From positions 1,025,638 through 1,089,637 of the forward strand of contig NZ_VYGV01000006.1 in the NCBI RefSeq assembly GCF_013387465.1: DNA of 64,000 nucleotides, read 5' to 3'. Both the position numbers and the translations under genes were made by a program. The notes beneath the pieces were generated by a model. It was not told the DNA's origin. It worked only from the letters and a program-made list of their open reading frames with translations, and did no database searches. Below, piece by piece: positions 9,918 to 64,000 of this stretch (its first letter is position 1; every line of letters begins with the position of its first letter). The stretch is from Hydrogenophaga aromaticivorans (GTDB taxonomy: Bacteria > Pseudomonadota > Gammaproteobacteria > Burkholderiales > Burkholderiaceae_C).

Positions 9918-9923
9918 CAAACT

Positions 9924-10081: not shown

Positions 10082-11362
10082 TCAGCCGGCGATGCTGTCT
10101 TCGGTGCGGTCCAGATCGAACTCGCGGTGCAGTGCGCGCACGGCCAGCTCCATGTACTTCTCGTCGATCACGACCGAGGTCTTGATTTCCGAGGTCGAGA
10201 TCATCTGGATGTTGATGCCTTCGTCGCTCAGGCACTTGAACATGCGGCTGGCCACGCCGACATGGCTGCGCATGCCGATGCCGACGATGCTGACCTTGCA
10301 GATGCGGGCGTCGCCCACCACGTCGGCCGCGCCGAGCTCGGGCACAACCTTACCCTTGAGCAGGTCCATGGCCTTCTGGAAATCGTTGCGGTGCACCGTG
10401 AAGCTGAAGTCGGTCTTGCCGTCCTTGCTCAGGTTCTGGATGATCACGTCGACCTCGATGTTGGCATCGGCCACCGCACCCAGGATCTGGTACGCGATGC
10501 CGGGCTTGTCGGGCACGCCGAGCACGGAGATCTTGGCTTCGTCGCGGTTGAAGGCAATGCCGGAAACGACGGCTTGTTCCATTTGTTCGTCTTCCTCAAA
10601 AGTGATCAGGGTGCCGGAGGCGGCTTCTTCATTCAGGTCGATGTCCCAGGGCGTGAAGCTCGAAAGCACACGCAGGGGCACCTTGTACTTGCCGGCAAAT
10701 TCCACCGAACGGATCTGCAGCACCTTGCTGCCCATGCTGGCCATTTCCAGCATCTCTTCAAAGCTCACGCGCAGCAGGCGGCGCGCTTCGGGCACCACGC
10801 GCGGGTCGGTCGTGTAGACGCCGTCCACGTCGGTGTAGATCAGGCATTCGGCCGCCTTCAGCGCGGCGGCCACCGCCACGGCCGAGGTGTCGCTGCCACC
10901 ACGGCCGAGCGTGGTGATGTGGCCGTCCGGGTCCACGCCCTGGAAGCCGGTGACGATGACCACCTTGCCGGCGTCCAGGTCGGTGCGCACGCGGGCGTCG
11001 TCGATCGATTCGATGCGCGCCTTGGTGTAGGCGCTGTTGGTCTTGATCGGCACTTGCCAACCGGCGTAGCTCACCGCTTCCATGCCCTCGGCCTGCAGGG
11101 CGATGGCCAGCAAAGCCGAGGAAGCCTGTTCGCCGGTGGCGGCCAGCATGTCGAGTTCGCGGCCGTAGGCGCTGTCGGTCTTGCCCGGGGCCAGCTCTTT
11201 GGCGAGGCCCAGCAGGCGGTTGGTTTCGCCGCTCATGGCGCTGGGCACCACCACCATCTGGTGACCGGCCCTGTGCCATTTGGCGACGCGGCGCGCCACG
11301 TTGCGGATGCGCTCGGTCGACCCCATGGAGGTGCCGCCGTACTTGTGAACAATCAAAGCCAT
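10082..11362 (-). CDS. lysC: Aspartate kinase
   Basis: The 426-residue protein catalyses ATP-dependent phosphorylation of aspartate, the first step towards lysine, threonine, methionine and diaminopimelate. The N-terminal kinase domain shows VHKYGGTSMGS at residues 5-15 and TLGRGGSDTSAVA near residue 170. The C-terminal third carries tandem ACT regulatory domains (VLGVPDKPGIAYQILG and VSIVGIGMRSHVGVASRMF), where lysine or threonine feedback is expected. The length is normal for a stand-alone class II aspartokinase. tilS and accA lie upstream on the same strand and tRNA-Ser lies downstream. Confidence 0.96.
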   Translation of the reverse strand: MALIVHKYGGTSMGSTERIRNVARRVAKWHRAGHQMVVVPSAMSGETNRLLGLAKELAPGKTDSAYGRELDMLAATGEQASSALLAIALQAEGMEAVSYAGWQVPIKTNSAYTKARIESIDDARVRTDLDAGKVVIVTGFQGVDPDGHITTLGRGGSDTSAVAVAAALKAAECLIYTDVDGVYTTDPRVVPEARRLLRVSFEEMLEMASMGSKVLQIRSVEFAGKYKVPLRVLSSFTPWDIDLNEEAASGTLITFEEDEQMEQAVVSGIAFNRDEAKISVLGVPDKPGIAYQILGAVADANIEVDVIIQNLSKDGKTDFSFTVHRNDFQKAMDLLKGKVVPELGAADVVGDARICKVSIVGIGMRSHVGVASRMFKCLSDEGINIQMISTSEIKTSVVIDEKYMELAVRALHREFDLDRTEDSIAG

Positions 11363-46204: not shown

Positions 46205-46317
46205 GGCTATCCGAATCATCGGCGCCGTTGACGGCAACTGAAGCGACAAACCCGGTGCGGGCGTGACGGGCTGCGCAGAATGACCACCCGTTACCACCTC
46301 CACACGCGAATCCGGGG

Positions 46318-49300: not shown

Positions 49301-49884
49301 GCCAGCTGCACGGCGGCCGTCACATGGCGTTCGTCGTCCACACGGCCGGCGCGCTGCAGTTCGATGTAGAAGCGGTGCGTGAACAGGCCGGCGAGCTTCA
49401 GGGCCACGTCGGCGGCACGGTTCGCATCGCCCTGGATCAGCGCCTGCCCGACCGGCCCGGCCTGTGCGCCCGAGAGCATCAGCAGACCACCGTTGAGTTC
49501 TTCCAGCCATTCGCGCTGGACCAGCGCCCCGCCCCGGCCGTCGCTGCGCGTCCAGGCGCGCGCCAGCAGCTCGCTCAGGTTCAGGTAGCCCTGTTTGTCC
49601 TGCACCAGCAGGATCACGCGCGGCGCGGCCGGCTGGTGGCTGCCGGGCATGGCGTTTGGCGTTTCTTCGGTGAAGCCCTGCAGCATCACCTCGGCGCCCA
49701 GCAAGGGCTTCACGCCCTCGCCGCGAGCGGCCTTGTAGAACTTGACCGCACCAAACAGGTTGCTCAGGTCGGTGATCGCCAGCGCGGGCTGGCCATCGGC
49801 GGCCGCGGCGGCGACCACGTCGTCGATGCGGTTGGTGCCGTCAACGACGGAGAACTCGGTGTGCAGGCGAAGGTGGATGAACAT
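46318..49884 (-). CDS. dnaE: DNA polymerase III alpha subunit
   Basis: The protein has 1188 residues from ATG 49884 (MFIHLRLHTEFSVVDG). It contains the PHP domain at the N terminus (LRLHTEFS), the family-C catalytic region with PGRGSGAGSLVAYAL and PDFDIDFCQSNRDRVI (three Asp), and HhH and OB-fold parts towards the C terminus (ILAGIVTDFRIINGQRGK). It is the replicative polymerase. Length is normal. It is flanked by the histidine kinase downstream and a COG4648 membrane protein upstream. Confidence 0.97.
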   Translation of the reverse strand: MFIHLRLHTEFSVVDGTNRIDDVVAAAAADGQPALAITDLSNLFGAVKFYKAARGEGVKPLLGAEVMLQGFTEETPNAMPGSHQPAAPRVILLVQDKQGYLNLSELLARAWTRSDGRGGALVQREWLEELNGGLLMLSGAQAGPVGQALIQGDANRAADVALKLAGLFTHRFYIELQRAGRVDDERHVTAAVQLAARLHLPVVATHPVQFLEPDDYEAHEARVCISDGEILGNNRRVRRFTREQYFKSAAQMEALFADIPSAVTNTLEIAKRCSLTLVLGKPQLPNFPIPPVDGVIMSVEDYFRHVSYEGLEGRLKHLFPDEAKREAVRARYVERLEFELNTILKMGFPGYFLIVSDFIKWAKENGCPVGPGRGSGAGSLVAYALLITDLDPLQYNLLFERFLNPERVSMPDFDIDFCQSNRDRVIDYVKDRYGKDAVSQIATFGTMAARAAIRDVGRVLDFSYGFCDGISKLIPNKPGMSVTLQYPPNPKVEGDKNNYAIEMEPVLAERIQKEDDVKTLIELAQKLEGMTRNIGMHAGGVLIAPGKLTDFCPLYMQPGSDSAVSQYDKDDVEAIGLVKFDFLGLATLTILEIAREFIMKRHKGQENFRFEDIPLDDQRVYALFSRGQTEAVFQFESRGMQGMLKDAKPSRLEDLIALNALYRPGPMDLIPSFVARKHGREVIEYPHPLVAEMLSETYGIMVYQEQVMQTAQILGGYSLGGADMLRRAMGKKKAEEMAEHRAIFRAGAAKNGISQEKADEVFDLMEKFAGYGFNKSHAAAYSLLAYHTGWLKVHYTAEFFCANMTVEMDDTDKLKVLWEDAKKMGISFEAPDVNRGFHRFEPITDKSIRYGLGAIKGTGQQAIDAIVAAREGRGEGPNGAETGPFKSLFDFCRRVDRQRLNKRTVEALIKAGAFDSLHLNRAEVLASVEVAFDFAAASVANANQGGLFDMMGEDDHGSSTQEPDLVSTMPWGVKERLTLEKTALGFYFSGHLFDEVQREVRRFARTELGDVKESRDPVILAGIVTDFRIINGQRGKLALFKIDDKTAVLEVSADENLINLHRNLLKDDELIVVQAVAQPDRFSGGLRLKIQQIWDLAAARCRFGKFLRVAVNGTAPAVATLVREFPPKRELTDQGELLRGLPVRLALQRAGAQCELQLDDRALFFPTDAALASWMAQAHERRAEIVFD

Positions 49885-50677: not shown

Positions 50678-50868
50678 CGGGAGGGAGCGTTCGGTCGTGG
50701 GGTGGGGCGCGTCCCGACAGCTTGGGCGCACCGTGCGGGTGCCGGGGCTGCACTTGAAGGCACCGCGACAAGCCCGGAAGGATGAAGCTTCGATTTTAAC
50801 GAGTCCCCCGCTCGGCCTGCCAAAACGCCGCAGCAATAGCGGTGAGCTTTTGAGGCGATACTCCTGCG

Positions 50869-52506
50869 ATGGGAAACACACCGCCACTTCACGACGTCGT
50901 CATCCTCGGTGGTGGTCTGGCCGGGCTCACGCTGGCCATGCAATTGAAACGGCGCGAACCGGACATCAACATCCTGGTGCTGGAGCGGCGCGCCCACCCG
51001 GTTCCCGAGGCCATCCACAAGATCGGCGAATCGTCCGTCGAAATCGGCGCGCACTACTTCGACAAGGTGCTCGGCCTCGGCGAACACCTCAGGGAACGGC
51101 AGTTGCGCAAGTTCGGCTTCCGCTTCTTCTTCTCCGAAGGTCGGCGCGACATCGACCAGGTCACCGAAATCGGGGCCAGCCGCCACCTCTCGGTGCCCAG
51201 TTACCAGATCGATCGCGGAATTTTCGAGAACTTCCTCGCGATCGAAGCCCAGGAACGGGGCGTCCGTTTTGTCGAAACCGCCATGGTGCGGCAGGTCGAA
51301 CTGACCAACGGTGAACCGGATTCCCCTGCGACCCATCAGGTGGTTTACGAACACCAGGGCGCACAGCACACCGTCAACGCACGCTGGATCGTGGACGCCT
51401 GTGGCCGGGCTGGCTTGCTCAAGCGCAAGCTCAACCTGGCCGAGCTCAACGACCACCCGGCCCACGCGGTCTGGTTCCGCATCAAGGACCGCATCCACAT
51501 CGACGGCTGGAGCGACAACACCGCCTGGCGCGAGCGCTGCGACCCCCAGGCACGTTGGCTCTCGACCAACCACCTGGTGGGCGCCGGCTACTGGGTCTGG
51601 CTCATCCCGCTGTCGTCCGGTTCGCACTCGGTCGGCATCGTGGCCGACCCGGCGATCCACCCACTCGCCACCATGGACACGTTCGACAAGGCCATGACCT
51701 GGCTGGAACAGTACCAGCCCCTGCTGTTCGACGAACTGGACCCCAAGCGGGACCTGCTGCAGGACTTCGCCTTCTTCAAGCGCTTCTCCTACGGCTGCAA
51801 ACAGGTATTTTCGGCCGACCGCTGGGCCCTCACCGGCGAAGCCGGCCTGTTCCTCGACCCGTTCTACTCGCCGGGCAGCGACTTCATCGCCATCAGCAAC
51901 ACCTACGTCACCGAACTGATCGCCATGGACCGGCGCGGCGAACGGCTGGGCGCGCGCGCGCAGATCTTTGACCAGCTGTTCCATTCGTTCTACGACAGCA
52001 CCATGGTGCTGTACCAGGACCAGTACCCGCTGTTTGGTGACCCGGAGGTGCTGCCGGTCAAGGTGATCTGGGACTACACCTATTACTGGGGCGTGCTGGC
52101 CCAGTTCTTCTTCCACCAGCGCCTGACCGACCTCTCGTCGCTCGCCGCTTTGCGCAGCGAACTGGCCGAGTGCCAGCAAATCAACGTGCTGGTGCAGGCG
52201 TTCCTGCGCCAGTGGTCGCTGGTGAGCCAGAAGCGCAACCCGGCGGTGATGCTCGACCAGGCCGAGATACCCTGGTTCGCGGAACTCAACCGCAGCCTGA
52301 ACGACGATCTGGACACCGAAGGCTTCCTGGCGCGCATCCGCGAATCCCACCTCCGCCTGAAACAGCTGGCTTGCGAGATCATCCTGCGGGCCCAGACCGA
52401 CCATCCGGACCTCCAGGCCGGCGAACTGACCGCGTTGCTGCCGGCGACCGCTGACGCGGGATCGTTATCGAACAGCGCCCGCATGCTGCCCGAAACCGTC
52501 TTCTGA
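50869..52506 (+). CDS. Flavin-dependent halogenase-like oxidoreductase 1
   Basis: The protein has 545 residues. FAD-binding GGGLAGLTLAMQLKRREPD lies at 14-32, HKIGESSVEIGAHYFD follows, and K81 (RKFGFRFFF) is at the place of the halogenase lysine. The WxWxIP halogenase motif is exact (WVWLIP, 242-247), with the GEAGLFLDPFYSPGSDFIA segment after it. A long C-terminal extension (about 380-545) is helical. Halogenases add chlorine or bromine to aromatic rings; here an aryl-polyene head group would be the expected substrate by context. Loss of halogenating activity cannot be excluded. Confidence 0.8.
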   Translation: MGNTPPLHDVVILGGGLAGLTLAMQLKRREPDINILVLERRAHPVPEAIHKIGESSVEIGAHYFDKVLGLGEHLRERQLRKFGFRFFFSEGRRDIDQVTEIGASRHLSVPSYQIDRGIFENFLAIEAQERGVRFVETAMVRQVELTNGEPDSPATHQVVYEHQGAQHTVNARWIVDACGRAGLLKRKLNLAELNDHPAHAVWFRIKDRIHIDGWSDNTAWRERCDPQARWLSTNHLVGAGYWVWLIPLSSGSHSVGIVADPAIHPLATMDTFDKAMTWLEQYQPLLFDELDPKRDLLQDFAFFKRFSYGCKQVFSADRWALTGEAGLFLDPFYSPGSDFIAISNTYVTELIAMDRRGERLGARAQIFDQLFHSFYDSTMVLYQDQYPLFGDPEVLPVKVIWDYTYYWGVLAQFFFHQRLTDLSSLAALRSELAECQQINVLVQAFLRQWSLVSQKRNPAVMLDQAEIPWFAELNRSLNDDLDTEGFLARIRESHLRLKQLACEIILRAQTDHPDLQAGELTALLPATADAGSLSNSARMLPETVF

Positions 52507-52634
52507 AGCTCCGGACCCCGCCTCATCGCGGTGGACCCGCCGCCCGCTGTTCGCCAGGGCGGAAAGACTATCATTCGGGGCTTCCAGCCGCCCATCAACG
52601 CTGTCCGCCCGTCGGCATTTCAAAGTCACATCCC

Positions 52635-53969
52635 ATGAATCCAAAGGCCCAGGGGGAACCAGGCCCCACCTGCGACGTGCTCGTGATCGGCGGCGGCCCC
52701 GCCGGCTCGACCGTGGCCAGCTTGCTGGCCGAAAAGGGGCACCACGTGGTGGTGCTTGAAAAAGCCCACCACCCCCGCTTCCACATCGGCGAATCGCTGC
52801 TGCCGGCCAACCTGCCGCTGTTCGAAAAGATGGGCATCGCCGATCAGATCAAGGCGATCGGCATGCACAAGCCCGGCGCCGAGTTCGTGTCGCCCGATCA
52901 CGATTGCACACAGACGTTTCATTTTGCCGATGCCTGGGACAAGTCCATGCCCAGCGCCTACCAGGTCCGGCGCGCGGACTTCGACGACATCCTGTTCCGC
53001 CACGCCGCCGCCAAGGGCGCTCGGGTGCACGAAGGCGTCAAGGTCACGAAGGTGGATTTCCTGGCCGAAGGCGGCGCCGACATCACGGCGCGCTGCGACG
53101 ATGGCCAGGAGATGCAATGGCGCGCGCGCTTCGTGATCGACGCCTCGGGGCGCGACACCTTCCTCGCCAACCGCTTCAAGATCAAGCAGCGCAACCCGCA
53201 CCACAACAGCTCGGCCGTGTACGCGCACTTTGACGGCGCACAACGGCGCGAAGGTGCCGATGAAGGCAACATCACCATCTTCTGGTTTGCCCACGGCTGG
53301 TTCTGGTTCATTCCCCTCACCAACGGCACCACCAGCATCGGCATGGTGACCTGGCCGTACCACATGAAGACGCGCGGGCAGCGCAGCCTGCAGCAGTTCA
53401 TGATGGACAACATCGCCACCTGCGAACCGCTCGTCGAACGCCTCAAGGACGCCCGCCAGGTCAGCCCCGCGGAGGCCACCGGCAATTTCTCCTACGTCTC
53501 GCAGAGCAACCACGGCCCCAGCTACCTGATGCTGGGCGATGCCTACGCCTTCATCGACCCGGTGTTCTCGTCCGGTGTCTGGCTGGCCATGCACAGCGCC
53601 GTGGTGGGCGCGGACACCGTCGACACCTGCCTGCGCGAACCGCAGCGGGCCGGTGCAGCGCTCAAACGCTTCGACCGTGTCATGCGCCACGGGCCCCGGG
53701 AATTCTCCTGGTTCATCTACCGGGTCACCAATCCCATCATGCGCGACTTCCTCATGGGTCCCCGGAACGTGCTGCGGGTCAAGGAAGCGATCCTGTCGGT
53801 GCTCGCGGGCGACGTGTTCGGCAAGACGCCGATCTGGCGCTCGATCCTCGTCTTCAAGGCGATGTACTACACCGCCAACATCCTGCAGCCCAAACGCGCG
53901 TTCATGGCCTGGCAACGGCGCCGTTTCAACATCCGCAAGGTGGACGACCCCGCCCTGTACAACGCATGA
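52635..53969 (+). CDS. Flavin-dependent halogenase-like oxidoreductase 2
   Basis: The protein has 444 residues. GGGPAGSTVASLLAEKGHHV starts near residue 19, then RFHIGESLLPANLPLFEKMG, and K79 (MHKPGAEF), the position of the catalytic lysine in characterised halogenases. The WFWFIP motif (222-227) is an exact WxWxIP. GDAYAFIDPVFSSGVWLAM forms the flavin-proximal loop. It is clearly diverged from the neighbouring halogenase and of the tryptophan/phenol halogenase type. Its stop overlaps the next gene, starting a tightly coupled run. Confidence 0.82.
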   Translation: MNPKAQGEPGPTCDVLVIGGGPAGSTVASLLAEKGHHVVVLEKAHHPRFHIGESLLPANLPLFEKMGIADQIKAIGMHKPGAEFVSPDHDCTQTFHFADAWDKSMPSAYQVRRADFDDILFRHAAAKGARVHEGVKVTKVDFLAEGGADITARCDDGQEMQWRARFVIDASGRDTFLANRFKIKQRNPHHNSSAVYAHFDGAQRREGADEGNITIFWFAHGWFWFIPLTNGTTSIGMVTWPYHMKTRGQRSLQQFMMDNIATCEPLVERLKDARQVSPAEATGNFSYVSQSNHGPSYLMLGDAYAFIDPVFSSGVWLAMHSAVVGADTVDTCLREPQRAGAALKRFDRVMRHGPREFSWFIYRVTNPIMRDFLMGPRNVLRVKEAILSVLAGDVFGKTPIWRSILVFKAMYYTANILQPKRAFMAWQRRRFNIRKVDDPALYNA

Positions 53970-54832
53970 GCTTCCCACACCGCCGCCCTGCATGGCCTTC
54001 CCTCCGGCAGGTTGCCGCCTGCGCCTTGCTGCTGTGCGGCGCCGGCCAGACCGCTCAGGCTGCCGAAGAAAAACCGCTGTGGGAAGCCGGTATCGGCGTG
54101 GCCACGGTCAGCTTCCCCGCCTACCGGGGGTCTGACCAGCGCCACCAATTTCTGCTGCCCACACCCTACTTCGTCTACCGCGGCGAGTTCCTGAAGGCCG
54201 ATCGCGACGGCGTGCGTGCGCAATTGTTCGACTCGGACCGCGCGGAGCTGACCTTCTCGGCCGCGCTCTCGCCGCCGGCCTCCAGCGACGACATCCGCGC
54301 GCGCGCCGGCATGCCGGACCTGAAGACCAACTTCGAACTCGGACCCCAGCTGAACCTGTCCCTGTGGCGCACGGACGACCGCAACCGCGAGCTCAAGCTG
54401 CTGCTGCCCCTGCGTGCCGCTTTCACGCTGGAAAAACAGTCCCGAAGCCTGGGCTGGGTGCTGCACCCCAAGCTCAACCTGGACATCAGCGACCTCGCCG
54501 GCTTTCCCGGCTGGAACCTGGGGCTGCAGCTCGGCCCCCTGTTCGGCGACCGCAAGCAGCACGGCTACTTCTATGGCGTCGACGCGGCCTACGCCACCGC
54601 TGATCGCCAGGCCTACGCGGCCGGTGGCGGGTTCGCGGGCATGCAGGCCATCGTGGGCGTGTCCAAGCGCTACCCCAAACACTGGGTCGGTGCCTTCCTG
54701 CGCTACGACAACCTGAACGGAGCACGCTTCGTGGACAGCCCCCTGGTGCGCACCCGGAACTACGTCGCCGCGGGTGTGGCGGTGTCCTGGATCCTGGGTG
54801 AATCGACGACGCGCGTCCTGGTTGATGAGTGA
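53966..54832 (+). CDS. MipA/OmpV-family outer-membrane protein
   Basis: The protein has 288 residues. The signal peptide CALLLCGAGQTAQA ends near residue 33. The mature part begins PLWEAGIGVATVSFPAYRGS, a MipA/OmpV hallmark, and has alternating beta-strands ending GVAVSWILGESTTRVLVDE. These proteins form beta-barrels and some scaffold murein enzymes. Its presence inside a pigment operon is unusual. It overlaps halogenase 2 by 4 bases and the next gene by 8. Confidence 0.85.
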   Translation: MSFPHRRPAWPSLRQVAACALLLCGAGQTAQAAEEKPLWEAGIGVATVSFPAYRGSDQRHQFLLPTPYFVYRGEFLKADRDGVRAQLFDSDRAELTFSAALSPPASSDDIRARAGMPDLKTNFELGPQLNLSLWRTDDRNRELKLLLPLRAAFTLEKQSRSLGWVLHPKLNLDISDLAGFPGWNLGLQLGPLFGDRKQHGYFYGVDAAYATADRQAYAAGGGFAGMQAIVGVSKRYPKHWVGAFLRYDNLNGARFVDSPLVRTRNYVAAGVAVSWILGESTTRVLVDE

Positions 54833-55601
54833 GCGCCGCCCACCGAACGGTCCGCTGTGGACGCTGTATGAGCATGTCGCCATGGTCATCGGCCTGGGCA
54901 GCCTGGCCGCGCTGTGCCTGGCCTGGCTGCCGTTCGCCATGCTGCTGCACCCGCTGCTGCCACGCACGGTCGGCCAGCGCCTCGGCCGCCGCGTCATCAA
55001 GGGGGGTTTCCACTTCTACCTGCGCCTGCTCAGCGGCTTGTGCTCGTGCCGTTTTGACCTGAGCGAACTGGACACGCTGCGCGACCAGGGGCCGCTGATC
55101 ATCGCCGCCAACCACCCCTCCCTGCTCGACGCGGTGCTGATCGTCTCACGACTGCCCAACGTGGTCTGCGTCATGAAAGCGGCCCTGATGCTGCACCCTT
55201 TGTTCGGGTCGGCAGCGCGGCTGGCGCGCTACATCCGCAACGACGGCATGCTGCAGATCGTGCAGCAAAGTCGGGAAACGCTGCAGACCGGCGCGCAGGT
55301 GCTGATCTTCCCCGAAGGCACACGCACCAAGGCCTTTCCGCTGGACCCGCTGACCCCGACGCTGGGACTGATTGCCCGGCGCTCGGGAGCCCCGGTGCAG
55401 ACGGTGTTCCTGGAGTTTTCGACCCCCTACCTCGGCAAGGCCTGGCCCCTGTTCCGCAAGCCCACGCTGCCGCTGCACTGCCGCGCCCGACTCGGTCGCC
55501 GGTTCGATGCGCCCACCGACCACTCTGCCTTCACCCAGACCCTGGAAGCCTACTTCCGGCAAGAATTGACGCCCCCCGTGCCAACCGCCACCCATGCCTG
55601 A
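54825..55601 (+). CDS. Lysophospholipid/1-acylglycerol-3-phosphate-type acyltransferase
   Basis: ATG 54825 (MSERRPPNG) gives 258 residues. A hydrophobic stretch lies at about 22-45. The PlsC-type motifs are NHPSLLDAVL (HX4D) and FPEGTRTKAFP. It transfers acyl chains to a hydroxyl acceptor. Aryl-polyene clusters contain related enzymes that anchor the polyene to a lipid head group, so that is its likely role. It overlaps MipA and the glycosyltransferase. Confidence 0.87.
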   Translation: MSERRPPNGPLWTLYEHVAMVIGLGSLAALCLAWLPFAMLLHPLLPRTVGQRLGRRVIKGGFHFYLRLLSGLCSCRFDLSELDTLRDQGPLIIAANHPSLLDAVLIVSRLPNVVCVMKAALMLHPLFGSAARLARYIRNDGMLQIVQQSRETLQTGAQVLIFPEGTRTKAFPLDPLTPTLGLIARRSGAPVQTVFLEFSTPYLGKAWPLFRKPTLPLHCRARLGRRFDAPTDHSAFTQTLEAYFRQELTPPVPTATHA

Positions 55602-56373
55602 GACCACGCCCGCCCCATCGACCACCCACCTGGTCCTGATCCCCAGCTACAACCCCGGACCGCAGGTGCTGGAAACGGTGCGCCAGGCGCGCGCGCAATG
55701 GACGCCCGTCTGGGTGGTGGTGGATGGCAGCACCGATGGCACCGACCGCAGTCTGCAGGCGCTGGCCCAAGGCGACGAGGGCCTGCGCATCATCGTGCTG
55801 CCGGAAAACCGCGGCAAGGGATCGGCCGTGCTCGAAGGCATCGGCCTGGCCGCCCAGGCCGGCTTCACGCACGCGCTCACCATGGACTCCGACGGCCAGC
55901 ACCCGGCGGACCTGATCCCCACTTTCATGGCCGCTTCGTTGAAGGCGCCCCAGGCCATGGTGCTGGGCAAGCCGGTGTTCGGCCCCGAGGCCCCTGCCCT
56001 GCGCGTCAACGGCCGCAAGGTGTCCAACGGCTGGGCGAACCTGGAAACGCTGTGGATGGGCATCGGCGACTCGCTTTACGGTTTCCGCGTCTACCCCATC
56101 GCGCCGCTGTCCCGGATCATGCAAGCCAATCCTTTCATGCGGCGTTTCGACTTTGATCCGGAAGCGGTGGTGCGGCTGTGCTGGGCCGGCGTGCGGCCGA
56201 TCAACATCGACGCGCCCGTGCGCTACCTCAGCGCCGAAGAAGGCGGCGTCTCGCATTTCAAATACCTGCGCGACAACACCCTGCTCACCTGGATGCACAC
56301 CCGCCTCTTTCTGGGCTTTGTGGTGCGCCTGCCATTGCTGATCTGGCGCCGTCTGCGTGCCTCCGGAGACTGA
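55594..56373 (+). CDS. Family 2 glycosyltransferase
   Basis: The protein has 259 residues. The GT-A fold starts HLVLIPSYNPGPQVLETVRQ. VVVDGSTDGTDRSL and LTMDSDGQHPADLIP hold the nucleotide-sugar Asp residues (DSDGQH). MRRFDFDPEAVVRLCWAG follows. There is no membrane span except a hydrophobic patch near the end (LFLGFVVRLPLLIW). It is comparable with glycosyltransferases in aryl-polyene clusters. It overlaps the acyltransferase by 8 bases. Confidence 0.86.
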   Translation: MPETTPAPSTTHLVLIPSYNPGPQVLETVRQARAQWTPVWVVVDGSTDGTDRSLQALAQGDEGLRIIVLPENRGKGSAVLEGIGLAAQAGFTHALTMDSDGQHPADLIPTFMAASLKAPQAMVLGKPVFGPEAPALRVNGRKVSNGWANLETLWMGIGDSLYGFRVYPIAPLSRIMQANPFMRRFDFDPEAVVRLCWAGVRPINIDAPVRYLSAEEGGVSHFKYLRDNTLLTWMHTRLFLGFVVRLPLLIWRRLRASGD

Positions 56374-56374
56374 C

Positions 56375-57133
56375 ATGACCAATACCCAAGAACGCACCAG
56401 CGCGCTGAAGTCCGACCCGCGCATGAAACACTATTTCGGCAGCGAGGACGAACGCCGCCGCATGACGCAAACCATGTTTGACGAAGCCGCGCCCGGCTAC
56501 GACAAGGCCGAGGCACTGACCGGGCTGGGCAGCGGCGCCTGGTACCGGCGCGAGGTGTTGCAGCGCAACGGCCTGAAGCCCGGCATGGCCCTGCTGGACG
56601 TGGCCGCGGGCACCGGCCTGGTCACCGTGGCTGGCGTCGAACTGGTCGGGCCTCAGGGCCGCGTGTGGGCGCTCGACCCCTCGCCGGGCATGCTGGCCGA
56701 GCTGCGCAAGAAGGTAGACGTGGAAACCATCGTCGCCTACGCCGAGGCCATTCCGCTGCCCGATGCGCAGGTCGATTTTGTGTCCATGGGCTACGCGCTG
56801 CGCCACGTCGGCGACCTGAACTTGGCGTTCGCCGAATACCTGCGCGTGCTGCGCCCGGGCGGTCGCGTCTGCATCATGGAAATCAGCCGACCCCGCAACC
56901 GGCTGCTGCGCGGCCTGCTGCACTTTCACATCGCCGTGGTCGTGCCGGTGCTCGCGCGCCTCACGCGCCGCCACGCCGACGTCCAGCGGCTGTGGGCGTA
57001 CTACGGCGACACCATCGAATCGGCGCTGGACCCCGAGCAGATCCTAGGCGCGCTCAGGCTCGCCGGTTTTACCGACGTGGACTGCTCGGTCACCCTGGGC
57101 GTTTTCCGCGAGTACACCGGGCGCCGACCGTGA
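56375..57133 (+). CDS. UbiE-like SAM-dependent methyltransferase
   Basis: ATG 56375 gives 252 residues. The SAM-binding motif is LLDVAAGTGLVTVAGVELVG near residue 75, with VSMGYALRHVGDLNLAF and VLRPGGRVCIMEIS typical of the UbiE/COQ5 type. It is not the housekeeping ubiE by context. In a polyene cluster, O- or C-methylation of the aryl head is the likely job. It overlaps the antiporter GTG by 4 bases. Confidence 0.82.
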   Translation: MTNTQERTSALKSDPRMKHYFGSEDERRRMTQTMFDEAAPGYDKAEALTGLGSGAWYRREVLQRNGLKPGMALLDVAAGTGLVTVAGVELVGPQGRVWALDPSPGMLAELRKKVDVETIVAYAEAIPLPDAQVDFVSMGYALRHVGDLNLAFAEYLRVLRPGGRVCIMEISRPRNRLLRGLLHFHIAVVVPVLARLTRRHADVQRLWAYYGDTIESALDPEQILGALRLAGFTDVDCSVTLGVFREYTGRRP

Positions 57134-58338
57134 ACACCACCGAAATCTTCCTGATCGCGATGCTGATCATCTTCAGCATTCCCTGGCTGGTCTGGCGGCT
57201 TCTCAAGACCGACTATTTCGCGCCGCTGGTGGTGGTGCAGATCGTCATGGGCATCGTGCTCGGCCCGGGCGTGCTCGGCCACTGGTTCCCCGCCTACTAC
57301 GAATTCGTCTTCACGCCCACCGTGGTGCATTCGCTCAACGGCATCGCCTGGTGGTCGGTGATGCTGTTCGTGATGATCGCGGGCGTCGAGCTCGACCTCG
57401 GCAAGGCCTGGCAGCACCGGCGCGAAAGTGGCATCACGGCCGGCCTGGCGCTGGGGGCTCCGCTGCTGCTGGGCTGCGGCGCGGCCGCCGTGCTGCTGGG
57501 TTTTGACGGCTGGATGGGCCCGAAGGCACAGACCTGGCAGTTCGTGGTGGGCATCGGCATGGCCTGCGCCGTCACCGCCCTGCCGATCCTGATCCTGCTG
57601 ATGGAGAAGCTCGACATCCTGCGCCAGCCGCTGGGCCAGCGCATCCTGCGCTACGCCAGCCTGGACGACATCGCGATCTGGGGCGTGCTGGCGCTGATCC
57701 TGATGGACTGGAGCCGCATCGGCAAACAGCTCGCCTTCCTGATCGCCTTCGTGGTGCTGGGCCTGGCGTTTCGCCGCCTCATGGCCTGGCTGGACGAGGC
57801 GGACCGCTGGTACGTGGCACCGATCTGGCTGGCCCTTTGCGGCCTCGGTGCGGACTGGGCGGGCCTGCATTTCATGGTCGGCGCGTTCCTGGCCGGCGCC
57901 ATCATGGACGGCCACTGGTTCAACCAGGAAAAGCTCGACCTGCTGCGCCACCACGTGCTGCTGGTGATGATGCCGGTGTTCTTCCTCTCCACCGGCCTAC
58001 GCACCAACTGGGCCGTGGGCGGCACCGAGGTGTTCGCCGCCGCCGCGCTGCTGCTCGTGGCCTCGGTGGCCGGCAAGCTGATCGGCGTGCGCATCGCTGC
58101 ACGGGTGCTGCACTGGGCACCGGGTGAAGCATCGATCATCGGCTGGCTGCTGCAGACCAAGGCCCTGATCATGATCATCTTCGCCAACATCCTGCTGGAC
58201 AAACAGGTGATCACCAGCGAGGCCTTCACCGCCCTGCTGCTGATGGCGGTGGCCAGCACCATGCTGACGGTGCCGATGGTGGAGCCGCAGATGCGCCGCT
58301 CGCGCGCGCTGGCGGGTTCAGCCGGTCAGAGCACCTGA
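57130..58338 (+). CDS. CPA2-type monovalent cation:proton antiporter
   Basis: GTG 57130 (VNTTEIFLIAMLIIFS) gives 402 residues. About eleven to twelve hydrophobic spans are visible, e.g. FAPLVVVQIVMGIVLGPGVL, AWWSVMLFVMIAGVELDLGK, YASLDDIAIWGVLALILMDW and LLVMMPVFFLSTGLRTN. The conserved DD of antiporter cores appears in LDDIAIWG. It resembles Na+/H+ or K+/H+ exchangers (KefB-like membrane part, without a TrkA domain). Why it sits at the end of the pigment operon is unclear. Confidence 0.85.
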   Translation: MNTTEIFLIAMLIIFSIPWLVWRLLKTDYFAPLVVVQIVMGIVLGPGVLGHWFPAYYEFVFTPTVVHSLNGIAWWSVMLFVMIAGVELDLGKAWQHRRESGITAGLALGAPLLLGCGAAAVLLGFDGWMGPKAQTWQFVVGIGMACAVTALPILILLMEKLDILRQPLGQRILRYASLDDIAIWGVLALILMDWSRIGKQLAFLIAFVVLGLAFRRLMAWLDEADRWYVAPIWLALCGLGADWAGLHFMVGAFLAGAIMDGHWFNQEKLDLLRHHVLLVMMPVFFLSTGLRTNWAVGGTEVFAAAALLLVASVAGKLIGVRIAARVLHWAPGEASIIGWLLQTKALIMIIFANILLDKQVITSEAFTALLLMAVASTMLTVPMVEPQMRRSRALAGSAGQST

Positions 58339-58349: not shown

Positions 58350-58838
58350 TCAAGAGCTGCTGCAGCCGACGCGCTCGACCTTGATCGAGCCCATGACGGA
58401 CACGCCTTTGGCGGCGTTCTCGCCGCTCATGACCGTGGTGCCGCTGCTGGCCGAGGCCAGGCGGGCGCCGCAGTGCAGCTTGATGTCCATGCCGCCCATG
58501 ACGTTGACGGCCGCGCGCAGGCAGTACCAGCCGTTGGGGTTGAGCAGCTCGATCTCGGAGCCGCCCATGACGTTCACGCCCGGGTTCACCATGATCAGGC
58601 TCGGGCCCGGCGTGACCTCGCGGTCTGCCGTGCCCTGGCCGATGCCGAACACCTTGACCGACGTGGCCAGCGTCCGGTAGGCGGGATTGGGGCCGAAAGG
58701 GTGTTCGCCCCAGGCCTTCAGGCAGGCTTGCAGCGCACCGCTTTCGCTGTCCTGGGCCTGCGCCGGTCCGGTGGCGCCCCCCAGGAGCAGACCGGCGATC
58801 AGGACGCTGCGGGTGCATCGGTTGCGGAGGTGTGTCAT
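58350..58838 (-). CDS. Secreted protein with repeated (N/S)VMGG units
   Basis: The protein has 162 residues. A signal peptide at about 9-29 ends GPAQAQ. The mature chain has PGVNVMGGSEIELL, AAVNVMGGMDIKLHC and KGVSVMGSIKVERVG. The repeated short strand-turn units would fit a right-handed beta-helix or bactofilin-like stack. Four cysteines may form disulfides. No function is known. It is the last gene of the minus-strand polyene operon, 36 bases behind the ketoreductase, with convergent neighbour 11 bases away. Confidence 0.62.
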   Translation of the reverse strand: MTHLRNRCTRSVLIAGLLLGGATGPAQAQDSESGALQACLKAWGEHPFGPNPAYRTLATSVKVFGIGQGTADREVTPGPSLIMVNPGVNVMGGSEIELLNPNGWYCLRAAVNVMGGMDIKLHCGARLASASSGTTVMSGENAAKGVSVMGSIKVERVGCSSS

Positions 58839-58874: not shown

Positions 58875-59612
58875 TCAGATCATCGCGCCGTTGATGGAAA
58901 TCACCTGCCCGGAAATGTAGGACGCGCGGTCCGAGGCCAGGAAGGCCACCAGTTCGGCCACTTCTTCCGGGCGGCCCACGCGCTGCATCGGCACCAGACG
59001 TTTGACCATGTCGGCATCGAACGTGCCTTCGATCATGCTGGTGGCGATGAGCCCCGGCGCGACGGCATTGACGGTCACGCCCCGGCTCGCCAGCTCCAGC
59101 GCCAGCGACTTGCTCGCGGCGTGCAGCGCGCCCTTGGCGGCCGAGTAGTTCACCTGCCCGCGGTTGCCCGCCACGGCGGCGACCGACGAGATGCTGACGA
59201 TGCGGCCCCAGCGCGTGCGCATCATGGGCATGGTCAGCGGCTGGGTCACGTTGAAGAAACCGTTGAGCGACACGTCGAGCACGCGGTCCCACTGCTCGCC
59301 GCTCATGCCGGGGAACACCGCGTCGTCGTGGATGCCCGCGTTGTTGACCAGAATCTGGATCGCACCCGCCTCGGTCAGCGCTTCCAGCGCGGCGGCGGTC
59401 GCTGCACGGTCGGTGATGTCGAAGGCCACAGCCTCGGCGCTGCCGCCCTCGGCCATGATCTGCGCCGCGATGGCCTGCGCCTTCTCCAGGCCCCGGTTGG
59501 CGTGCACGATGACATGGTGGCCGTCGGCGGCCAGTCGCTGGCAGATCGCGGCGCCGATGCCACCGCTGCCGCCGGTGACGAGGGCGCGCCTGCTTTTCGC
59601 TGAAGAGGTCAT
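58875..59612 (-). CDS. 3-ketoacyl-ACP reductase (FabG/ApeQ-like)
   Basis: The protein has 245 residues. The short-chain dehydrogenase has ALVTGGSGGIGAAICQRLAA (NADPH site), LVNNAGIHDDAVFP, the active YSAAKG and SSVAAVAGNRGQVN. It reduces 3-ketoacyl-ACP in each extension cycle. Its start overlaps the dehydratase stop by 4 bases, so it is a cluster-dedicated ketoreductase rather than the housekeeping FabG. Confidence 0.92.
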   Translation of the reverse strand: MTSSAKSRRALVTGGSGGIGAAICQRLAADGHHVIVHANRGLEKAQAIAAQIMAEGGSAEAVAFDITDRAATAAALEALTEAGAIQILVNNAGIHDDAVFPGMSGEQWDRVLDVSLNGFFNVTQPLTMPMMRTRWGRIVSISSVAAVAGNRGQVNYSAAKGALHAASKSLALELASRGVTVNAVAPGLIATSMIEGTFDADMVKRLVPMQRVGRPEEVAELVAFLASDRASYISGQVISINGAMI

Positions 59613-60043
59613 AAGGTTTGAGCGTCGAGCACCACCGAGGCCCGGCCTTCGATCAGGCAGCGTTCACCGTGGTGGATGTGGAACTGGTAGAGGATGAGCC
59701 GCGCGTCGCCCGAGAGGCGCTCGGCGGTGATGCGCAGCGGCCCGGTCTGGTCGTCCAGCCGGTTCACGTGCAGGCTCAGGCCGCGCACGCTGGTGAGGTA
59801 GCCCTGGGTGGGCGCAGCGGCCGACTGCGCGAGCAAGGCACCGTGCACGGCCATGGCCTGAGCGGCGTACTCCACGCCGGTCGCCGCGCCCAGGCGGTCG
59901 GCCGCACGCAGGGGATTCAGGGGGTCGGTGTGGCTCAGCGCGTCGCAGACGATGCGCTGCTCGCTCCACTCGAGCACGTTCTCCAGCAGGCACATGCTGC
60001 CCTGGTGGGGAATGTGGGCGGCGATCCAGTCGCGGTTCAGCAC
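59609..60043 (-). CDS. Hot-dog 3-hydroxyacyl-ACP dehydratase (ApeP-like)
   Basis: The protein has 144 residues. IPHQGSMCLLENVLEWSEQ with the active His (PHQGSM) and GVEYAAQAMAVHGAL match the COG4706 dehydratase family of aryl-polyene clusters. It would make the double bonds of the polyene. It overlaps the chain-length-factor gene upstream by 7 bases. Confidence 0.86.
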   Translation of the reverse strand: MLNRDWIAAHIPHQGSMCLLENVLEWSEQRIVCDALSHTDPLNPLRAADRLGAATGVEYAAQAMAVHGALLAQSAAAPTQGYLTSVRGLSLHVNRLDDQTGPLRITAERLSGDARLILYQFHIHHGERCLIEGRASVVLDAQTL

Positions 60044-60840
60044 GGCTGCAGTTCCACCTGAAGCTGCATGGGCGCGAGGTAGTCGAGCACCACGGGGCCG
60101 GCCGTGCCGCGCGCCAGGCGCTGCAGCAGGGGCAAGGCGCGCATGGCCGGGATGTTCTGGCGCAGCCCTTCGAGAGCCGCGTCCTCCAGCACATCGGCGG
60201 GCGCCCGGCTGGGTGTGACCGTGATCGACGCCAGCGAAGCCTCGCTGCGCTGCGCACTGAGCAACAAGGCCACGCCGCCGCAGTCGGGCGTGTCGCGCTT
60301 GGCGTGCAAGGGTTCGGGGTATTCGCTGTCGTAGGCCACCAGCAGCACCGGCTGGCCGTCCAGGGCCACCTGGGCCAGCGCATCCAGCAGGCCGGCGCCG
60401 AAGCTGGCGTCGAACGCACCGAGCACCTGGCAGGGCGCCATGCTGCGCGTGGCGATGCCCCAGTAGCCGGCGGCGGCGTTGTGCACCGAGTTGTGAAATC
60501 GCGTGGGCGAGATCTGGCGATCCTCGCCCGCGAGCTGCTCACACAGCGAATGGCAGTTGTGGCCGTCGGCGCCCGAGGCGGCGAACACGGTGGCCAGCGT
60601 GGACGCGTCGGCGCCCGCGTGGGTCACGGCCTCCTGCCCCACGCCCAGGCTGAGCCGGATGACGCGGCTGGCGCGGCGGCGCTCGGCCGGGGGCAGCAGC
60701 AGGGGCACAGGCAACACGCTCGGTGCCGGCACATAGCCCGCTTCACCGCGCAGCGCCGCCGCAGCGGTGGCCCAGTCGGGCAGGCCGGGCGCGATGAGGC
60801 CGATGCCGTTGATCCAGGCTTGCAGCGGCGTTGCGATCAT
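60037..60840 (-). CDS. Ketosynthase chain-length factor (ApeC-like)
   Basis: The protein has 267 residues. It follows a thiolase/ketosynthase half (PTRFHNSVHNAAAGYWGIAT, LGAFDASFGAGLLDALAQ), but the position of the catalytic Cys reads FDASFG and has none, and His motifs are lacking. This is the mark of a chain-length factor that pairs with the true ketosynthase next door. It overlaps both neighbours. Confidence 0.85.
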   Translation of the reverse strand: MIATPLQAWINGIGLIAPGLPDWATAAAALRGEAGYVPAPSVLPVPLLLPPAERRRASRVIRLSLGVGQEAVTHAGADASTLATVFAASGADGHNCHSLCEQLAGEDRQISPTRFHNSVHNAAAGYWGIATRSMAPCQVLGAFDASFGAGLLDALAQVALDGQPVLLVAYDSEYPEPLHAKRDTPDCGGVALLLSAQRSEASLASITVTPSRAPADVLEDAALEGLRQNIPAMRALPLLQRLARGTAGPVVLDYLAPMQLQVELQPC

Positions 60841-62027
60841 GCGGCGACTCCAAGAACCAGGCTGCAGTTGCTGCCACCAAATCCGAACGAATTGCTCAGC
60901 GCATGGCGCAGCGGCGCGTCGGTGCCGTGCAGCTGGTAGCGGATCGGTATGGCCGGGTCCAGCGAGCCGGTGCCGGGGCTGCCGGGCAGGCGGCCATCGG
61001 TCAGTGCCATCGCGCAGAGGATCGCTTCGATCGCGCCCGCTGCACCCAGTGTGTGGCCCATGTAGCCCTTGGTCGAGTTGCCGGGCACGGTGTCGCCGAA
61101 CAGCGCGCTCACCGCCAGGCCTTCGGCCGAGTCGTTGGCGGGCGTGGCCGTGCCGTGCAGGTTGATGTAATGAATGTCGCTGGCGCCCAGGCCCGCCGAG
61201 CGCAGTGCGGCCTCCATCGCCAGGCGTGCACCCAGGCCCTGCGGGTGCGGCGCCGACATGTGGTACGCGTCGCTGGACTCGCCAGCGCCCAGCAGCAACA
61301 CGGTGCCCGGCGCAGGCTGGTCCGGGCGCTCCAGCAATGCAAAGGCCGCACCTTCGCCGATGGAGATGCCGTCGCGCGCCGCGTCGTAGGGCCGGCAGGG
61401 CCGGGATGAGGTCAGTTGCAAGGAAGCAAAACCGTACAGGGTGGTCAGGCAGAGGGTATCGACACCGCCCACGATGGCTGCGTCGATCTGGCCCAGCGCG
61501 AGCTGGCGCGCCGCCGCGGCAAACACCTTGGCGCTGGACGAGCAGGCGGTGGAGATCGCCATCGCCATGCCCTCCAGACCGAAGTAGTCGCGCGTGAACT
61601 CGGCGAGCGAGAACGCGTTGTGCGTGGTCCGGTAATGGAAATCGTCGGGCAACGCGCCGCTGACCGGATCGCGCCGCCGGTAGGCCAGCTCGGTCTGCAG
61701 GATGCCGGCGGTGCTGGTGCCGAGGAACACGCCCACACGATCGGCGCCGTAGCGAGCGACGGCCTCACGCACGCGCTGCGCGAACCCGTCGGTCTCCAGG
61801 CCCATCAGGGTCAGCCGGTTGTTGCGGCAGTCGTAGCGGGCCAGCGCCTCGGGCAGGCGCTGCGCATCGACACCCGCGACCTCGCCCACCCAGGTGTCGA
61901 GCGCCACCGATTCAAAGGCACAGGGAGCGAGTCCCGAGCGCTCGGCGCGCAGGGCCTCGCGCGTGGCCTCCAGCCCTCGGCCCAGGGCGGTGGTCAATGT
62001 GTAAGCTGAGAGTTGCAGTGGGGTCAC
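60837..62027 (-). CDS. Beta-ketoacyl-ACP synthase (ApeO-like)
   Basis: The protein has 396 residues. A complete KAS II triad is present: C162 (ISTACSSSAK), H291 (NLHGTATPANDS) and H325 (GYMGHTLGAAGA). It should condense malonyl-ACP with the growing aryl chain. The next gene downstream encodes a cysteine-less partner, so the pair forms a KS-CLF complex as in aryl-polyene synthesis. Start overlaps are tight downstream; 47 bases separate it from the upstream methyltransferase. Confidence 0.92.
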   Translation of the reverse strand: MTPLQLSAYTLTTALGRGLEATREALRAERSGLAPCAFESVALDTWVGEVAGVDAQRLPEALARYDCRNNRLTLMGLETDGFAQRVREAVARYGADRVGVFLGTSTAGILQTELAYRRRDPVSGALPDDFHYRTTHNAFSLAEFTRDYFGLEGMAMAISTACSSSAKVFAAAARQLALGQIDAAIVGGVDTLCLTTLYGFASLQLTSSRPCRPYDAARDGISIGEGAAFALLERPDQPAPGTVLLLGAGESSDAYHMSAPHPQGLGARLAMEAALRSAGLGASDIHYINLHGTATPANDSAEGLAVSALFGDTVPGNSTKGYMGHTLGAAGAIEAILCAMALTDGRLPGSPGTGSLDPAIPIRYQLHGTDAPLRHALSNSFGFGGSNCSLVLGVAA

Positions 62028-62074: not shown

Positions 62075-62851
62075 TCAGACCGGCACCCGGCAGACCAGCA
62101 TCACGTTGGCAAAGGGCTTGCCTTCGCTCATGGGTTCGGTTTCAACCTCAAAGCCCAGCGCGGTCAACAGCGCCTGCCATTCGGCCAGGCTGCGGCAGTA
62201 CAGGCGCGGCGGACGGCGGCTGCGCGCCAGGGTCACCGCGCGGTCGACCCAGTTCGACACCAGAAAGGGCCAGCCCGCTTCTGCGTCACCGACACGGGTG
62301 AGGAACAGGCCGCCGGGCGGCAAGGCCAAGCGAATGCGTCGCAGCAGGCGCTCTTGCGAGGCGGGGTCCACGTAGTGCAGCGCATCGAGGACGGTGACGG
62401 TGTCCACCTGACCAACATCCACCTGGGTCATGTCGCCCTGCTCCACCTGCACCAGCGGGTGGTGGCCGCCGAACGCCGCCACCGCGCGTTCGACATCGCG
62501 CGACATCAGTTCAACACCGCGCAGGCTCTGGAAACGGGGCGCGGGCGCCCAGCCGGCCGGCCACTGCCCGCGCTCCGACAGGCGCTGCGCCGCCAGCAGC
62601 CAGGCGAACAGGCAACCCTGCCCGCAACCGAGGTCAAGCAGCCGCCCGCCCCTGAACAACAGGCCGCGCCGCAACAGCTCCCGGAAGATCGGGTCGCCGC
62701 CCAGCTTGCCCCAGGCGTGGAAAAAAGCGAAACGGCCTGCCGCCCAGAAAAGGCGGCTCGCGTCGGCGCGCAGGATTTTCAGAAACACCCGGGGCGTTGG
62801 CGCCGCGCCGCCCTGCGAGCTTGGTTGGGAACCGCCCGTCGCCTCGCTCAT
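62075..62851 (-). CDS. SAM-dependent methyltransferase
   Basis: The protein has 258 residues. LLDLGCGQGCLFAWLLAAQ gives the SAM site, with VTVLDALHYVDPASQERLL and LPPGGLFLTRVGD as later motifs. Its family is broad. It is a second methyltransferase in the cluster (the other is UbiE-like). It overlaps the upstream deacetylase stop by 4 bases. Confidence 0.83.
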   Translation of the reverse strand: MSEATGGSQPSSQGGAAPTPRVFLKILRADASRLFWAAGRFAFFHAWGKLGGDPIFRELLRRGLLFRGGRLLDLGCGQGCLFAWLLAAQRLSERGQWPAGWAPAPRFQSLRGVELMSRDVERAVAAFGGHHPLVQVEQGDMTQVDVGQVDTVTVLDALHYVDPASQERLLRRIRLALPPGGLFLTRVGDAEAGWPFLVSNWVDRAVTLARSRRPPRLYCRSLAEWQALLTALGFEVETEPMSEGKPFANVMLVCRVPV

Positions 62852-63648
62852 GCCATGGCCTGCTGGAGCGTCACGGCCCGCAAGGACTCGGCCTTCAATC
62901 GGTCGAGCAACAGCGGCAAGGTAGCCAGGATCACCGGCTGCCCATCGGGCGTGAGCGCGGCGTGACCGTCGTGCATGAGCAGGATGTCGCCCGGCCCCAG
63001 GCCGCGCGTCAGGCGCTGCAGCACCTGCTGCGGTCTGCCGTCGCGCGTGTCGTAGGGGCGGCGGGTCCAGGCGGCCAGCTGCAGGTCGAGCCCGGCGAGC
63101 ACCGGCTCCAGGAAGGGGTTGCGCAGACCGGCGGTGGGCCGGAAAAACAGCGGGGCCTGGCCGGTGATGTCCGAGAGCGTGGCCTGGGCGGCCGCGACGT
63201 CGGCACGCATGCGCCGGGGGCCGAAGAGGGAAAACGCGTTGGAGTGGGCGTCACCGTGGTTCTCGACCCGGTGACCGCGCGCCACGATCTCGCGGCAGAG
63301 CGCCGGGTGGGCCCGCGCGCGCCAGCCGATGCAGAAAAAACTGGCCTGGGCGCCAGCCGCGTCCAGCAGGTCGAGCACGCGCGGCGTGACCTCGGGGTCG
63401 GGCCCGTCGTCGATGGTCAAGGCCAGTTCGCGCCGCGCCTGTGCGTGCGCCGGCAGGCGGGTGAGGTTGGGGCCGAGCAGGCTGGAGCGCGGCAACAGAC
63501 CGGCCACCGTGATCACCGCGTGGTTGAGCGCCACCGCCCCCAGTGCCCACGGCCAGACGGCTGGCACGGCCACCGTGCCCAGCGCGGCCCCCGCATGCAG
63601 CAGCGCGGACGCCTTGATCGCGGGGGGGACGGTCCAGGGCCGGCTCAT
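62848..63648 (-). CDS. NodB-type polysaccharide deacetylase-like protein
   Basis: ATG 63648 (MSRPWTVPPAIKASALL) gives 266 residues; longer frames add a leader in other neighbours' space. Two hydrophobic spans lie in the first 65 residues. The NodB domain has LALTIDDGPDPEVTP (metal Asp pair), VENHGDAHSNAFS (the HxxxH region) and FFRPTAGLRNP. It removes acyl groups from a sugar or related substrate. It overlaps the next methyltransferase and the hydrolase. Confidence 0.85.
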   Translation of the reverse strand: MSRPWTVPPAIKASALLHAGAALGTVAVPAVWPWALGAVALNHAVITVAGLLPRSSLLGPNLTRLPAHAQARRELALTIDDGPDPEVTPRVLDLLDAAGAQASFFCIGWRARAHPALCREIVARGHRVENHGDAHSNAFSLFGPRRMRADVAAAQATLSDITGQAPLFFRPTAGLRNPFLEPVLAGLDLQLAAWTRRPYDTRDGRPQQVLQRLTRGLGPGDILLMHDGHAALTPDGQPVILATLPLLLDRLKAESLRAVTLQQAMA

Positions 63649-64000
63649 GGCAACGCCGGGAAATGCCCCAGTGAGAGGAAACGCTGCCACAGGGGCAACC
63701 AGACCGCCCAGTCGTGTTCGCCCGGCAAGGTGATGTGGGTCGCTTCGGGCATGTGCCGCGCCAGCAAGCGCATGCCATCGGCAAAACGGTCCTGCGCCCC
63801 ATAACCCATGAACACCGGCACCTGGGGCAAGGGCTGCTTGAGCCACTGCCAGAGGCGCACGTCGGGGTCGGTCTGCTGATCGGGGCTCGCCTGCCAGGCG
63901 TCGAGCCCGCCAGCGCGATTGATCGCGTTGGTGGTCAGCCGACCGCCCGCGTAGGGAGCGAGCAGGCACAGGCCGTGCACCTCACCCGTGCGCCCGGCGA
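63645..64000 (-). CDS. Alpha/beta hydrolase (5' end beyond window)
   Basis: The frame is open to the window edge. At least 117 residues are seen, ending FLSLGHFPALP. PVFMGYGAQDRFADGMRLLA holds the probable acid Asp and LPGEHDWAVWLPLW the catalytic His. The nucleophile Ser lies outside the window. It overlaps the deacetylase start by 4 bases. Substrate is unknown; a thioesterase or lipase role in the pigment pathway is possible. Confidence 0.75.
   Translation of the reverse strand, partial: AGRTGEVHGLCLLAPYAGGRLTTNAINRAGGLDAWQASPDQQTDPDVRLWQWLKQPLPQVPVFMGYGAQDRFADGMRLLARHMPEATHITLPGEHDWAVWLPLWQRFLSLGHFPALP

Follow-up and report, generated by a model that had tools for sequence, protein, structure and literature searches.

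Two diverged flavin-dependent halogenase-type genes at the edge of a xanthomonadin-type cluster in Hydrogenophaga aromaticivorans

Why should an aryl-polyene (APE) pigment cluster carry two halogenase-like genes side by side? The question is raised by a 64,000-nucleotide stretch of Hydrogenophaga aromaticivorans (contig NZ_VYGV01000006.1, positions 1,025,638 to 1,089,637; hereafter the window), in which gene A (50869..52506, plus strand; an intact frame of 545 aa) precedes gene B (52635..53969, plus strand; an intact frame of 444 aa) at the edge of an APE cluster that extends beyond the window end. A encodes a flavin-dependent enzyme resembling halogenases, from a deep clade that appears uncharacterised, and B is of the common APE-linked flavin-dependent halogenase type. 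An earlier note, made from the sequence of the window, had described two diverged halogenase-like enzymes in an APE-like cluster and suggested a doubly or sequentially halogenated pigment. The description stands as regards two diverged halogenase-type enzymes in an APE pigment cluster. By sequence A and B are independent lineages and do not form a duplicated or fixed pair; each also occurs separately.

We consider it probable, with appreciable room for doubt, that both A and B are flavin-dependent halogenases, recruited to APE synthesis independently and now neighbours at one margin of a xanthomonadin-type cluster. In this enzyme family a flavin hydroperoxide and halide give hypohalous acid, which reaches a lysine through a tunnel. 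Following the family mechanism, each enzyme would use the reduced flavin cofactor FADH2, O2 and chloride or bromide to form hypohalous acid, which the conserved lysine (K81 in A, K79 in B) would hold, and would place the halogen on an electron-rich, probably carrier-bound APE intermediate. A would have arrived with a ketosynthase (KS) and chain-length factor (CLF) pair, as a KS'–CLF'–A unit; in this lineage KS'–CLF' would have been lost and A kept, A now acting on the product of the remaining KS1–CLF. B would halogenate the hydroxyaryl end, and A would act on that pigment too, perhaps at a different position. Catalysis, substrate, halide and the different positions for A and B are things that we infer, and two halogenated positions in the pigment are plausible.

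Halogenase character of A and B

Both proteins have the FAD motif, the lysine and the exact WxWxIP that the earlier note had reported, and the conserved positions of all three do not vary across 13 rows of A and 18 of B. The FAD-binding GxGxxG near the N-terminus is GGGLAG in A (residues 14–19) and GGGPAG in B (19–24), WxWxIP reads WVWLIP (242–247) and WFWFIP (222–227), and FxxPxxSxG, a motif label for flavin-dependent halogenases, reads FLDPFYSPG (328–336) and FIDPVFSSG (306–314). Invariant positions in alignment A1 (window A plus 12 of the 13 A loci fetched; L069, whose called start was cut, was omitted) are G14–G16, A18, G19, K81, W242, W244, I246, P247, F328, P331, S334 and G336; in alignment A2 (window B plus 17 of 41 other B rows) they are G19–G21, G24, K79, W222, W224, I226, P227, F306, P309, S312 and G314. 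K81 and K79 align with each other in the A/B pairwise alignment. Aligned by eye, the lysine of A matches a lysine of CndH, CmlS and PltA, and the lysine of B one of Mpy16. The strong difference in length and sequence was likewise borne out (545 versus 444 aa), with 27% identity in the pairwise alignment and again 27%, over 314 columns, in a profile comparison; this identity, together with the separate clades of A and B, rules out recent duplication of one halogenase. Both proteins match PF04820 above its curated cut-off (A 5e-13, B 2e-28), and at E ≤ 0.001 the A and B genes are the only ones in the whole genome to do so (four match pieces). These sequence matches are beyond chance.

Comparison with solved structures points to the same family. 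The A profile matched 20 PDB sequences at E ≤ 1e-3, all of them halogenases or the C. hutchinsonii flavoprotein 3nix, with CmlS best. The B profile ranked Mpy16, FasV, CndH, ChlB4 and PltA at the top, and its best non-halogenase scored 61.5 bits against 260.7 bits. Foldseek searches with the AlphaFold models (pLDDT 85.7 for A, 87.4 for B) gave halogenases or 3nix at ranks 1–45 of the 50 listed for A, the first monooxygenase standing at 46, and at ranks 1–40 of the 50 listed for B, whose nearest solved structures were FasV, PltA, ChlB4, CndH and Mpy16. Thus, profiles and predicted folds support halogenases, not monooxygenases, as the best solved relatives of both proteins. The assignment to a halogenase-like type is upheld, and these comparisons did not place either enzyme among non-halogenating monooxygenases, the outcome that the earlier note had named as contrary to its view; such a placement is unsupported for A in particular.

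CmlS, CndH, PltA, Mpy16 and ChlB4 are FADH2-dependent halogenases with carrier-bound substrates. They are among the closest characterised proteins to B, sharing its motifs and fold at 29–32% identity in the Foldseek alignments, but B is a clade of its own (93/94), distinct from them. For A, the best Foldseek matches include CtcP and PltM, which are of similar chain length but only 15–20% identical, with query-normalised template-modelling (TM) scores of 0.58–0.62. A maximum-likelihood tree was computed from 16 A rows, 15 B rows and 7 references, with no non-halogenase row; A was trimmed to at most the first 380 residues and B to at most the first 360, with residue 1 written as M. The phylogeny proposed in the earlier note gave a divided answer: B lies inside a group (83/66) holding CmlS, CndH, PltA, Mpy16 and ChlB4, and the A rows form one clade (100/100) outside all seven references. 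Bmp2 and 3nix sit on long branches, and their positions are unsure.

Several properties of the proteins tell against reading A, and in part B, as a halogenase. CmlS is the best NCBIfam match of both but scores far under its cut-off, and neither protein reaches any cut-off among those listed. The margin for A is small, at 74.6 bits for CmlS, 61.3 for geranylgeranyl reductase and 57.7 for QhpG. The branch leading to the A clade is long (3.54 changes per column), query-normalised TM scores of the A model against known structures are mostly just 0.5–0.6, and no characterised enzyme was found among the A-clade rows met in this analysis. A has GEAG at the place of B's GDAY, and GE stands for B's GD in 12 of the 13 A1 rows. 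A search of the PDB with the single A sequence at 0.01 gave 20 matches, of which VibO (8.5e-4) was the sole one that is neither a halogenase nor 3nix. The long branch, the GE, the small margin and VibO would all fit A as a flavin monooxygenase or some other oxidase in APE synthesis, acting for example in ring hydroxylation, with B as the sole halogenase. QhpG, which has a CmlS-like fold, can dihydroxylate (PMC7876137), and a ring hydroxylation step has been proposed for the Lysobacter pigment (PMC3691225). However, the 20 PDB sequences matched by the A profile do not include QhpG, and the lysine, WxWxIP and FxxPxxSxG are invariant in a nine-row alignment of A and its relatives, including those only 35–39% identical. 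We regard an oxidase role for A as distinctly unlikely.

Distribution of A, B and the KS'–CLF'–A unit

The two genes were sought in a family sample of 200 genomes and a class sample of 369, the own genome (G000) being counted. In the family sample 41 genomes matched A at E ≤ 1e-10, and A was taken as present in the 14 of them that scored above 500 bits; 41 genomes matched B at E ≤ 1e-40, and B was called strong in the 35 above 300 bits. In the class sample 42 genomes matched B at E ≤ 1e-70, and the strong ones were the 35 above 470 bits. The A relatives in the 13 other family genomes are 52–71% identical. Strong B occurs in 35 of the 200 family genomes, full-length copies elsewhere being 52–76% identical to window B. 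In the class sample, A was found in 8 and strong B profile matches in 35 of the 369 genomes, two of the latter with an internal stop. All 35 strong-B genomes of each sample have a CLF match, although this is weak (81–85 bits) in G239 and G431. On these matches B is the common APE halogenase type.

It could be argued that one or both enzymes act on a non-APE substrate and are chance neighbours of the cluster. Other APE genes lie near B in 7 of the 13 fetched B loci; the remaining six have, in the 20 kb fetched, no APE neighbours beyond weak ketoreductase (KR) matches, and one of the 13 A loci (L079, from G146) has none. In addition, A relatives of Janthinobacterium lividum and Gloeothece (35–39% identical) lie outside APE clusters. 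Against this, an APE CLF is present in 14/14 A genomes and 35/35 strong-B genomes of the family sample, compared with 47/200 overall (Fisher p 3e-10 and 4e-29, values that ignore kinship). Chance proximity is, in our view, highly improbable. The A gene of L079 lies at about 9200–10880, and its genome also has two B-type genes. The J. lividum enzyme (L220, 11989–13587) is on a plasmid, near a type I polyketide synthase and an Asp/Asn hydroxylase-domain protein; that of Gloeothece (L221, 11950–13758), also on a plasmid, has a fatty acid desaturase, an ectoine synthase and HpaB close by. It is possible that these two distant A-clade enzymes belong to other halogenase pathways.

The surroundings of A were examined more widely by scanning named genomes with A1, which gave 312 stretches at E ≤ 1e-3, not all necessarily of the A clade. 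The best 80 of the 312 were kept; they are proteobacterial, mostly from Burkholderiales genera, and none of these 80 is titled Xanthomonas, which does not show absence from that genus. With the 13 others they make 93 A loci, which are not all independent (at least L067 and L112, and L068 and L131, are the same records). In 80 of the 93, a CLF gene immediately precedes A on its own strand, accompanied in 78 by its KS; the decayed L096 is included in the 80. Seven A loci of the class sample add to this: in L182–L186 CLF immediately precedes A, in L187 two genes separate them, and L181, a contig of 4.5 kb, contains just A. In L182–L185 (families f144–f146) the KS–CLF–A order lies inside APE clusters, and the A proteins of L182, L183 and L185 are 37–43% identical to window A. 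In G071, G177, G192 and G090 (the last in 430 contigs) no CLF other than that next to A was found at E ≤ 1e-8, and in both G071 and G192 the main cluster, which is on a different contig, has no KS1 or CLF between its methyltransferase and dehydratase genes; KS'–CLF' is therefore likely to be the APE elongase there. The KS' of L095 retains the STACSSSAK motif of KS1. By sequence, then, A appears as a separate deep clade and is usually the third gene of a KS–CLF–A unit.

Other features of the distribution do not favour the explanation proposed here, or at least a fixed division of labour within it. Among CLF-bearing family genomes, B is present in 13/14 A genomes versus 22/33 others (p 0.06), or versus 22/30 others when three weak CLF matches are removed (p 0.14), and a specific association of A with B is not significant in this set. 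Of the 93 loci, 16 have B no more than 10 kb from A. Among the eight class-sample A genomes two have a strong B and six have none, and seven have a CLF match, the one without being G237 (81% complete). A-only and B-only genomes both occur among APE-bearing genomes. Because each gene occurs there without the other, fixed two-step halogenation is not implied. Three of the 80 named A loci (L107, L108 and L167) have no other APE genes, L108 and L167 being near contig ends. A XanB2-type gene was not found in G192, G069 and G175, although its presence in 12 of the 15 other A genomes searched speaks for the explanation.

The KS'–CLF' junction and selection on A

Among the named genomes, the closest A genes (84–95% identical) are in Hydrogenophaga metagenome-assembled genomes (MAGs), a Hydrogenophaga isolate and unclassified beta- and gammaproteobacterial MAGs, which fits the comamonad origin supposed in the earlier note. 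A relative, L095 (A 92% identical), aligns with the window up to position 50808 (7802 in L095) and again from 50845 (9978 in L095). The 2.2-kb block between (7803–9977) holds KS'–CLF' and is absent from the window, which has 36 bp instead (50809..50844). KS'–CLF' is also absent from L093 and L097, and in L096, a Hydrogenophaga MAG, its decayed remains lie at about 9300–9960 upstream of an intact A. In L099–L101 (H. pseudoflava and H. flava) the order is KS'–CLF'–A–B; L100 and L101 come from the cultured strains H. flava NBRC 102514 and H. pseudoflava NBRC 102511. Relocation of the pair elsewhere in G000 was rejected: no second KS' copy was found in that genome, the best matches to KS' being KS1 at 50% and two others at 36% and 32%.

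A is under purifying selection despite the absence of KS'–CLF'. Omega was 0.14–0.33 in seven pairwise comparisons, with values of 0.175 for the window against L093 and 0.19 against L097. By A identity L095 is nearer to the window than L096 and L097 are, so that KS'–CLF' was probably lost more than once, with A kept. We infer loss as the direction of change.

These data bear on whether A and B are redundant, hitting the same position, with A a leftover of the KS'–CLF'–A unit and one halogenated site in the pigment. Redundancy would agree with the occurrence in APE-bearing genomes of A without a strong B (G064 and the six class-sample genomes) and of B without A, and with the decay or absence of KS'–CLF' beside A in some Hydrogenophaga relatives. 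A mere leftover sits poorly, however, with the purifying selection on A where the pair is missing, and the A rows have a distinct invariant SPG segment and the A model a longer helical C-terminus. We think redundancy doubtful. The APE cluster of G064 (L074), a genome with A and no B match at E ≤ 1e-40, is a natural test case for A alone. Since A and B stand side by side in the cultured H. flava and H. pseudoflava, which enzyme places which halogen is directly testable.

Known pigment clusters and the surroundings of A and B

Xanthomonadin I has a bromine on its ring and another on its chain. A more specific possibility than independent recruitment as such, tentative and on balance rather unlikely, is that A founds a new halogenase branch associated with KS–CLF and halogenates the growing or finished chain at a vinyl carbon, while B acts on the aryl ring, the pair giving dihalogenated xanthomonadin-type pigments. 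The A lineage is linked to a chain-elongating KS–CLF and is apparently uncharacterised, and it may act on a conjugated polyene instead of an arene. Xanthomonadins are described as carrying zero to two bromines and Xanthomonas clusters as having a halogenase gene, whereas the Lysobacter cluster is described as lacking one and its pigment as showing no bromine isotope pattern (PMC3691225). A dibromo pigment is reported from Steroidobacter cummioxidans (PMC5979037).

Where the APE-cluster literature names a 'halogenase', the passages concerned do not distinguish kinds (PMC3691225, PMC3949708); two unrelated lineages are present. A separation of two such lineages in APE clusters was not found in literature titles and abstract openings. 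The Xanthomonas pig/xan cluster is described with an APE type II synthase and a halogenase gene, in the singular (PMC3691225), whereas there are two here. According to a figure legend in the same paper (Fig. 5), halogenase genes flank ORF16–ORF17 (CLF–KS) except in L. enzymogenes and Xylella, in a figure that includes Variovorax paradoxus (PMC3691225). The mention is made in passing and does not distinguish this halogenase from the B type; going by the legend text, the Variovorax gene probably belongs to the KS'–CLF'–A unit found here.

The APE-like cluster of the earlier note is confirmed by gene content in and beyond the window. On the plus strand, B is followed by genes for a MipA/OmpV-type outer membrane protein (54026..54832, with an alternative upstream ATG at 53966), an acyltransferase (PF01553; 54825..55601, arcD-like by position), a family 2 glycosyltransferase (55594..56373, arcE-like by position), a UbiE/COQ5-type methyltransferase (56357..57133) and an Na+/H+ antiporter (57130..58338, arcG-like by position). 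The minus strand then carries a small protein with no Pfam match (58350..58838), a short-chain dehydrogenase, FabG-like and a KR (58875..59612), and an ApeP-like dehydratase (59609..60043), the sole dehydratase found in the cluster, which at 19.4 bits scores under the Pfam curated cut-off of 27. Next come a short CLF-like partner (60037..60840, ORF16-like by its place beside KS), the ketosynthase KS1 with its STACSSSAK motif (60837..62027), a methyltransferase (62075..62788), a polysaccharide-deacetylase-family protein (62848..63648, arcN-like by annotation; numbered L005:12848-13648 in the extended locus) and a weakly hydrolase-like protein (63645..64000), which starts the remainder of the cluster and continues past the window. 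From there to about 72.7 kb lie an MMPL exporter, a lipid A-type acyltransferase, an AMP ligase, a second KS, an acyl carrier protein (ACP) and a PAP2 protein. Xanthomonadin-type components are thus present: KS with short CLF, KR, dehydratase, ACP, AMP ligase, acyltransferases and MMPL exporter. A XanB2-type chorismatase, which supplies the hydroxybenzoate starter, is encoded outside the cluster on another contig (PF21168; G000:C21:722476).

In its gene content the cluster matches the xanthomonadin type and looks most like the arc cluster of Azoarcus sp. BH72, whose order of halogenase, XanB2, MipA, acyltransferase, glycosyltransferase, arcF and Na+/H+ antiporter agrees, XanB2 apart, with B and its neighbours (PMC3949708). 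In Azoarcus, however, XanB2 adjoins arcA, whereas here it is on another contig and A lies upstream of B (PMC3949708). The text on the arc cluster mentions a halogenase once, for arcA, next to XanB2 (PMC3949708). It counts against the proposed explanation that, although Azoarcus carries this halogenase gene, the passages concerned do not show a halogenated arcuflavin. Because a XanB2-type gene adjoins B in G071 and G177 as arcB adjoins arcA, arcA would be B-like; this likeness of B to ArcA is by synteny only.

Upstream of the cluster, the window encodes a CHASE4 hybrid histidine kinase (43970–46219) and a second-type DNA polymerase III alpha-like protein of 1188 aa (46318–49884). Near its start are a YqaJ recombinase-like gene (1415–3346) and a phage-type integrase (8601–9758, minus strand) close to tRNA-Ser(GCT) (9924–10016); within positions 1–10016 there is probably an element integrated at this tRNA gene.

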